From the NCBI RefSeq assembly GCF_039851975.1, contig NZ_CP156660.1, forward strand, positions 3,353,035 to 3,417,034: DNA of 64,000 bases, read 5' to 3'. Position numbers and translations under genes: made by a program. Shown here piece after piece: positions 16,186 through 17,872 of this stretch. This DNA is from Desulfoscipio sp. XC116 (GTDB taxonomy: Bacteria; Bacillota; Desulfotomaculia; Desulfotomaculales; Desulfallaceae). Within the stretch, counting starts at the first letter, position 1; each line of letters begins with the position of its first letter. The notes under the pieces were generated by a model. It was not told the origin of the DNA. It saw only the letters and a list, made by a program, of their open reading frames with translations, and made no database searches.

Positions 16186-16215
16186 ATTATATCACTTTAT
16201 GCCGAGCGGTGTCAA
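16186..16215 (-). promoter_or_regulatory. rRNA operon promoter
   Basis: On the minus strand a perfect TTGACA (16210-16215) and TATAAT (16186-16191) are separated by 18 bases. They sit about 310 bases upstream of the 16S 5' end, as expected for a strong sigma-A rRNA promoter with a processed leader. Confidence 0.85.
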
Positions 16216-16597
16216 TGGCAATTCCTAGTTTATTTAGTGGTTTATCTGCTATTTGCCAGCACTGCTCTGCGATTCCTTTTTTCGTCGCTATGATAACGGC
16301 GACATTTGATAATATAGCACATTTTTTTTTACTTGGCAATAGGTATTGTGTAGTTTTATTTTCCGGACAGCGCTTTTTATATACATTCGGCGCGGTTAGA
16401 TCTGCAATACAGCTGTTGTGCTTCTTCCCCGGTCATTCAGCACATGAGTGGCGCAAAATATACGGGGATCAAAAGATCAAATTGTATGACCCGGAATACT
16501 AACCGGCTACTCGCTATTAGCCACAGGAGTACCCACCGTAGCATTTCCCACCGAACTAAGCCCTCCTAATTAATCCTCGGGAGAGAAATACTGCATC
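16216..16597. other. Gene-free spacer upstream of the rRNA promoter
   Basis: No start-RBS-frame combination with coding character is visible on either strand. The stretch lies between the rRNA promoter and repeat copy 1. The first part could contain UP-element or Fis-like activating AT tracts (16316-16330 is T-rich). Confidence 0.4.
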
Positions 16598-16739
16598 GGG
16601 GAGTGTCGCAAAACTACTTTCTTAGAGTAGTGAGCGACGCTCCCCTTTCCGGATACAGCCAATTATTTCGATAATAATCCGGTATCTTTACAAAAGGCTG
16701 CCGCACTATGAACTATTTAGTCCGTTGTGCAACAGCCCC
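16598..16739 (-). repeat. MITE-like repeat R1, copy 1
   Basis: This copy of about 142 bases is the reverse complement of the copy at 62551-62691, with only scattered differences. Its termini are imperfect inverted repeats (GGGGCTGTTGC... and GGGAGTGTCGC...), resembling the ends of some IS families. One end forms a hairpin with arms GGGAGTGTCGC and GCGACGCTCCC. Confidence 0.85.
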
Positions 16740-16836
16740 TTCCGCCTTTATGCGAACGCTGTGTATAAAAAACATCCCGTATGCTATCCGTAATAACCTG
16801 TCGCCTCTCGCAAAAGCTGTGCTGGAGTTTACCTCC

Positions 16837-16866
16837 AAAAAAAAAAGAACGGCGGTTGTTCCGCCG
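16837..16866 (-). terminator. Rho-independent terminator 2 below the cobalamin riboswitch
   Basis: On the minus strand CGGCGG-AACAA-CCGCCG is followed by TTC and a run of ten Ts. This is a textbook intrinsic terminator with no gene between it and the terminator at 16914-16954. Confidence 0.85.
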
Positions 16867-16913
16867 AATTAATAGGGTATATAATTAACCCCCAGAGTAT
16901 GGAGTGGGTTTAA

Positions 16914-16954
16914 CAAAAAAGGTCATAGTTTCCTCCCCGAAGAAACTATGACCT
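16914..16954 (-). terminator. Rho-independent terminator 1 (expression platform of the cobalamin riboswitch)
   Basis: A 13-base-pair stem AGGTCATAGTTTC/GAAACTATGACCT is followed on the minus strand by six Ts. It starts about 65 bases after the aptamer, the usual place for the switching terminator. Confidence 0.85.
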
Positions 16955-17017
16955 GCGCAAATACCATACTTAACGGTAGCACATTCCTCTCCGCGGAAGG
17001 TTAATGCATACAAACTA

Positions 17018-17180
17018 CCCGGGCAGGTTTCCTGACTTATGGATCATCACCTGTTTTCGCCTTCCCGGAAATATACATTCCGGTGGCTTATGAAAACGGC
17101 TTCCCATTTACAGTGGCCGGACCGTCCAGGAATTACACCTGGTTCCCTTTTACCCCTATTGCAAGGCACCCTGAGTATTA
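17018..17180 (-). ncRNA. Cobalamin riboswitch aptamer with no downstream gene
   Basis: The minus strand carries the conserved B12-box architecture in order: AAAAGGGAACCAGGTGTAA, TCCTGGACGGTCCGGCCACT, GGGAAGCC, GCCACCGG, GGGAAGGCG, GATGATCCATAAGTCAGGA and ACCTGCCCGGG. The last block contains the GTCAGGA-ACCTGCC core. Cobalamin riboswitches normally precede B12 transport or synthesis genes. Here a terminator follows, then about 50 bases and a second terminator, and there is no reading frame before the R1 repeat and the rRNA operon. It is either a relic whose gene was lost or a B12-sensing non-coding RNA. Confidence 0.9.
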
Positions 17181-17202
17181 TTCAATTAACTTGCTTTACA
17201 GG

Positions 17203-17231
17203 ATTATATCAGTATTTATAGGTATTGTCCA
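17203..17231 (-). promoter_or_regulatory. Promoter of the orphan riboswitch transcript
   Basis: On the minus strand TGGACA (17226-17231) and TATAAT (17203-17208) are separated by exactly 17 bases. It lies about 25 bases upstream of the aptamer. The good match suggests that the riboswitch RNA is still made. Confidence 0.7.
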
Positions 17232-17318
17232 CAAAAAGTTATCAATCAGCCGACAAAATTACCTTATCATAAGGGATAACCGTTTTTCAAAAGCATCTCC
17301 ATATATCGCTTAACAGTA

Positions 17319-17352
17319 AGAAGCCTTCCATCCACAAGGAAGGAAGGCTTCT
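17319..17352. terminator. Hairpin between the acyl-CoA synthetase operon and the riboswitch
   Basis: The arms AGAAGCCTTCC and GGAAGGCTTCT are separated by a loop of 12 bases. There is no clean T-run. It may stop transcripts arriving from the acyl-CoA synthetase genes before the riboswitch unit. Confidence 0.5.
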
Positions 17353-17872
17353 ATGTTATAAGCCCGTAATGACCTGCGCTACAACCACCATGAACATCTA
17401 TGCGGCCCATAACAGCCTCTTAAGCTGCCACAAGCCATTTCGACACTCATATGATCTTTGCTCAACCACTATGGATACCTAATAAGCTTGCAGCAATCTC
17501 TCGACTACTACAAACCCAAACAATTAACATGCGGGTAAGATAATTGTTTTTTCGACATCCATAATAATCTTAACTCGATCGATAAACATCCCTTAGACTA
17601 TATGATAATCAATATAGACTGCCATACAGCCTACCGGAACGTTATCAATCCGCCCGCCGGCTAATATCGAGCCGACCAGACCCGGTATTAACCTTTAGTC
17701 GACTGTTACAGAGCCTTTAAGTCCTGCAGCAATCTTGTCCCGGCCATTACGGACCTTACGCTAGTATTATGGCTGTTTTGTAAAAAAATATAGGTGGAAT
17801 CTTGTACCATCAACTTATTCAGCATCGGGCACTCCGAGAACCCCAACTATTTACTGCAACCAGCCAATGACC
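17353..17872. other. Gene-free stretch downstream of the acyl-CoA synthetase gene
   Basis: About 520 bases carry no convincing frame on either strand. One weak hairpin lies at 17518-17551 (AAACAATTA...TAATTGTTT followed by Ts on the plus strand). I see no repeat or RNA family here. Confidence 0.4.

Follow-up and report, generated by a model that had tools for sequence, protein, structure and literature searches.

Only a small number of riboswitches have been found to govern a noncoding RNA. In EutX of Enterococcus and Rli55 of Listeria, a longer RNA is made in the absence of B12, and the ANTAR hairpins of this RNA titrate EutV (PMC5821096, PMC8079631). AspocR of Listeria, a noncoding read-through product of a B12 riboswitch that is antisense to pocR, has been reported to act in trans (PMC8079631). 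The reviewed B12 examples of riboswitch-controlled noncoding RNA act on ethanolamine or propanediol use (PMC5821096, PMC8079631).

We analyzed a 64,000-nucleotide stretch of the genome of Desulfoscipio sp. XC116 (the window, to which all coordinates refer), in which a cobalamin riboswitch on the minus strand lies near an rRNA operon. In common with EutX and Rli55, this locus is predicted from its sequence to combine a B12 aptamer, a terminator deciding on a noncoding 3' part and a promoter of its own, with no coding gene; in common with AspocR, the predicted read-through product of the B12 riboswitch is a noncoding RNA. We surmise that the locus is probably an independent noncoding unit, with an OFF riboswitch gating a 3' extension of ~75 nt and thereby producing a B12-repressed small RNA that acts in trans. 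If true, this kind of control would be extended to a sulfate-reducing anaerobe, rich in B12 riboswitches, in which B12 represses a small RNA.

The riboswitch unit and its surroundings

The unit starts with a sigma-A type promoter at 17203..17231 (-), reading TGGACA-17-TATAAT with an extended -10 and agreeing with the consensus at 11 of 12 positions. The aptamer at 17005..17188 (-) matches the RF00174 covariance model at 117.4 bits (vs. a gathering score of 31.5) from model position 1 to 189; like other cobalamin riboswitches of this family, it thus covers the whole model, but it differs from them in having no gene downstream. Just 3' of the aptamer, a hairpin (17004-16974) contains the putative antiterminator strand GGAGAGG (16986..16992, (-)), and this is followed by terminator 1 (16914..16954, (-)), the predicted switching terminator, with a 16-pair stem at 16954-16920 and a T run. 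Between terminators 1 and 2 lies a 47-nt segment (16867..16913, (-)), which we propose to be the functional part of the read-through RNA and which has the conserved core GTTAAmCCyACTCCATACTCyGG...TATTAATT. Terminator 2 (16837..16866, (-)), the predicted end of the read-through RNA, has a stem at 16866-16850 with 6 G-C pairs, again with a T run. Terminator-like sites in the region numbered 8 vs. 1.9 expected by shuffling. The aptamer, the promoter of its own and both terminators had been proposed in the initial annotation of this DNA, and all of them were confirmed at the coordinates given there, the aptamer by the Rfam model check.

That annotation had also stated that no reading frame follows the riboswitch. 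This is correct insofar as the stretch from terminator 2 to the rRNA promoters carries no minus-strand ORF above 54 aa. Some gene remains are nevertheless present, which the letters alone could not reveal: at 16426..16587 (-) lies the decayed C-terminus of a NiFe-hydrogenase large subunit, detected with Pfam PF00374 (E 8e-5, under the curated cut-off) and, with 43% identity and in-frame stops over 54 aa, by a tblastn search of 2 kb with a protein of the congener G006 (E 7e-10). Between the fragment and terminator 2 is the R1 repeat of ~143 bp (16599..16743, (-)), found in ~40 places of the genome in copies 74-97% identical to that of the window. Because a second congener, G001, has neither the repeat nor the fragment at the corresponding place, both look, from this sequence comparison, like later arrivals rather than remains of an ancestral gene served by the riboswitch. 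At the corresponding locus of G006, an intact hydrogenase end is situated upstream of the tRNA. Further downstream in the window, two rRNA operon promoters (16186..16339, (-)) are positioned at 16339 and 16215, with the sequences TTGCCA-17-TATATT and TTGACA-18-TATAAT. On the opposite (plus) strand, the ORFs within 16209-17313 are all short (<100 aa).

The source genome (4.26 Mb) contains 19 cobalamin riboswitches, 18 of which have a same-strand ORF within ~660 nt, with the orphan riboswitch as the sole exception. Several of the others (loci L044-L051) precede genes of large proteins with signal-peptide-like starts, which would be unusual targets of B12 control.

Conservation in congeners and the proposed switch

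In G001, a single contig carries, in this order, the tRNA, the upstream RNA, the aptamer (114.8 bits with RF00174), terminator 1, the conserved segment, terminator 2 (with a longer stem), the rRNA promoters and the 16S start; the aptamer-to-16S gap is 602 bp with no gene inside. Conservation of the unit in relatives without a gene, a point raised in the initial annotation, is thus found in G001, which keeps the aptamer and both terminators. The order in G006 is tRNA, upstream RNA, aptamer (113.4 bits), exactly 5000 N and 5S rRNA, and from this spacing we infer an aptamer-to-16S gap of ~540 bp if the operon is as long as in the window. A TGGACA..TATAAT similar to the riboswitch promoter is also present in G006, and the promoter site in G001 is weaker. 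The aptamer scores of the three species (117, 115 and 113 bits) are near-equal, with no sign of decay. In another congener, G003, the upstream RNA is directly followed by the rRNA promoters and leader; since the riboswitch is absent from this same site, the sequence comparison implies that one branch of the genus acquired the unit or that another branch lost it.

Identity figures refer to the source genome (G000) vs. G001, the sole pair readable throughout, with G006 masked by N past the aptamer. The aptamer is 84% and the hairpin 3' of it 81% identical; unconstrained sequence between the two genomes is saturated, with the linker at 42% and the promoter region at 48%. Terminator 1 is 40% identical, yet every aligned stem position pairs in both species. 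The inter-terminator segment, interrupted by a single 8-nt indel, shows 85% identity across its 39 aligned positions; past terminator 2, similarity is not seen again until the rRNA promoters are reached. A whole-genome search of G001 with the segment alone returned a match at the collinear place (E 3.4e-4). The pattern search of the remaining genomes of the order yielded only one extra match, L114, which we rejected as chance, a riboswitch being absent nearby, and when the named genome collection was scanned once with the pattern, only three unrelated chance matches came up. The comparison between species shows the aptamer, the terminators and the synteny, as well as a pattern of selection on the pairing of terminator 1 and on the inter-terminator segment. 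The strongest argument comes from this pattern in two sequences: because the segment equals the aptamer in its level of conservation and similarity stops at terminator 2, the read-through product would be a real RNA ending at that terminator.

From these features we infer transcription, a B12 response, an antiterminator switch, action in trans and the type of target. Upon binding of B12 (adenosylcobalamin or another corrinoid), the hairpin just 3' of the aptamer would retain the GGAGAGG strand, allowing terminator 1 to form and yielding a short RNA of ~280 nt; without B12, GGAGAGG would engage the 5' arm of terminator 1, and the polymerase would read through until terminator 2, lengthening the RNA by ~75 nt in which the conserved segment is included. 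We postulate this OFF-switch logic because folding of the G000 and G001 sequences shows that, in each of the two species, the conserved GGAGAGG strand is able to base-pair with this 5' arm. The longer RNA may then act in trans, most simply by base pairing via the conserved core ACUCCAUACUC, which is C-rich and resembles an anti-Shine-Dalgarno sequence. The seed regions of many Gram-positive small RNAs are C-rich and bind Shine-Dalgarno sequences. In a target search of the genome for sites complementary to the core, the only exact match was the locus itself; matches with 3 mismatches included a repeated site, and no convincing target emerged among them.

Alternative readings of the locus

The initial annotation had also allowed for a relic of a lost gene. 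A riboswitch that once controlled a gene, or a stray copy of such a riboswitch, functionless by now, would be in keeping with the lack of a gene 3' of the riboswitch, the presence of a riboswitch at this site in three species only, its absence from the congener G003 and the decayed hydrogenase fragment downstream in G000. However, that fragment is not found in G001, the aptamers score alike in the three species, and the inter-terminator segment has been conserved as much as the aptamer; in addition, terminator 1 is fully paired through compensating changes despite a sequence divergence equal to that of the linker, and the aptamer-to-16S gaps of G001 and G006 (the latter by inferred spacing) are too short for a gene plus an rRNA leader. 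Given the compensating changes and the short gaps in particular, we consider a relic rather unlikely, albeit a possibility of some weight. That the riboswitch is found, in three species, upstream of one rRNA operon and in the same orientation as that operon may also raise the prospect of control of the operon by read-through into it. We rejected this reading as improbable because terminator 2 lies in between and because the operon has two promoters of its own, which are also found in G003 where the riboswitch is absent from the site; moreover, the riboswitch is located beside only one of the five rRNA operons of the source genome, and the ~143-bp repeat is tolerated in the intervening sequence.

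The initial annotation had likened the locus, as a possible B12-sensing small RNA, to Rli55 and EutX, which titrate an ANTAR regulator. The layout, comprising a B12 aptamer, a terminator and a further noncoding segment, is indeed alike (PMC5821096, PMC8079631), but when the sequence downstream of the aptamer was scanned for ANTAR dual hairpins (6-nt loops with A1 and G4), none was found in G000 or G001, whereas the same scan, as a positive control, did detect a dual hairpin upstream of glnA. In addition, the source genome has a single ANTAR protein, with its gene between glutamate dehydrogenase and glnA and not linked to eut. On the basis of motif and protein content, we dismissed an ANTAR-protein sponge as very improbable; what endures of the earlier proposal is a B12-sensing small RNA, supported by synteny in three species and, in the readable pair, by conservation of the aptamer and the segment as far as terminator 2, while the ANTAR parallel was given up. 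The dual hairpin lying between the sole ANTAR gene and glnA (L084, around 1882697 on C1 of G000) likely forms, together with this regulator, a nitrogen antitermination switch, as judged from sequence. Finally, the segment might encode a short B12-regulated peptide, as there is a TTG-started frame of ~15 codons in G000. The 8-nt indel shifts this frame in G001, the stop is not common to both species and inspection by eye revealed no Shine-Dalgarno sequence; with a reading frame that is not conserved, we rejected the peptide as scarcely credible. A B12-repressed small RNA acting in trans is the reading that we retain.

The large upstream RNA and comparison with known systems

Directly upstream of the riboswitch, at 17315..17756 (-), is a structured noncoding RNA of ~440 nt with a terminator of its own (~17319-17353), which is 84% identical in G006 and 82% in G001. 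Of 113 genomes from the order, 76 yielded BLASTN matches to this large RNA, at one to four copies each, with absences uncertain as many of the genomes sampled are drafts. Because the copies sit in unrelated intergenic places, we regard it as an independent gene. Of 398 genomes sampled from the phylum, 140 (100 of 266 genera) were matched by a covariance model built on its 5'-most 109 positions, with E-values that are rough owing to a short calibration; outside the order, the search covered this domain in place of the full-length RNA.

The consensus from 64 copies (alignment A2; loci L118-L187) has 147 pairs, of which 98 display compensatory changes, and takes the form of several branches enclosed by a long closing stem. 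Altogether, 98.6% of the cells pair, vs. ~34-41% when the partners are displaced by one to three columns; there were 908 double-change cells vs. 234 in shuffles; the alignment was built without reference to structure, and the structure was derived from this same alignment. A triplet of G.U, pair and U.G recurs, nearly invariant, at seven places (alignment A2 columns 11/453, 44/61, 95/110, 141/196, 151/186, 351/431 and 375/410), in one orientation only and never in the other, and might be a site for protein binding that is present in repeated form. At L124 (G005 C8), the large RNA occurs in full-length copies in tandem. In genomes of other families (G293, G123, G207, G317, G188 and G193), two matches of the 5'-domain model fall within ~300 nt of each other, perhaps representing a variant with a repeated domain.

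Among 4227 models of Rfam 15, none reached its gathering score on the window copy, and at a permissive E<=10 there were only chance matches, none covering the body of the RNA; for 13 further loci with copies of the large RNA, searched at E<=0.05, the only match was to an adjacent c-di-GMP riboswitch and none to the RNA itself. We also rejected the idea of 6S RNA in disguise, since RF00013 did not match at the large RNA locus and nearly all genomes of the order (108 of 113) have separate 6S genes, with two in G000. We found no earlier description of the large RNA in the open-access literature, which is weak evidence of absence.

A conserved promoter-like site precedes the large RNA in the window (17765..17791, (-); ATA, ~17 nt, CATAATA), and most of the 64 copies have ATA, ~17 nt and (GG)NCATAATA directly upstream, the end of this strongly conserved motif being given as GGNCATAATA. 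By general consensus, the site resembles forespore sigma-G (CATNNTA) or sigma-F promoters. This likeness to a forespore promoter suggests that the large RNA may be expressed in the developing spore. Some copies adjoin spoVT- or spoIVA-like genes. Taken together, we think it quite likely that the island upstream of the rRNA operon joins a B12-switched small RNA to a large structured RNA of a class that is as yet undescribed and spread across the phylum, and that this large RNA is spore-associated, has a forespore-type promoter and is perhaps a multi-site protein binder. If so, the large RNA would be a new class among big bacterial RNAs, with its promoter pointing to the forespore. Similar to OLE, GOLLD, ROOL and raiA/ModT, it is long, ornate, standalone and structured; in contrast to these, it is unmatched by Rfam models, and its promoter, its arms and the repeated G.U motif are its own.

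As for the riboswitch unit, it differs from EutX and Rli55 in that there is no ANTAR dual hairpin at the locus and no EutV-type regulator was found, and also in that its 3' part of ~75 nt ends at a second terminator and adjoins an rRNA operon. It differs from AspocR in having no plausible gene on the opposite strand. The locus is therefore a member of neither group, although it resembles both EutX/Rli55 and AspocR in layout.
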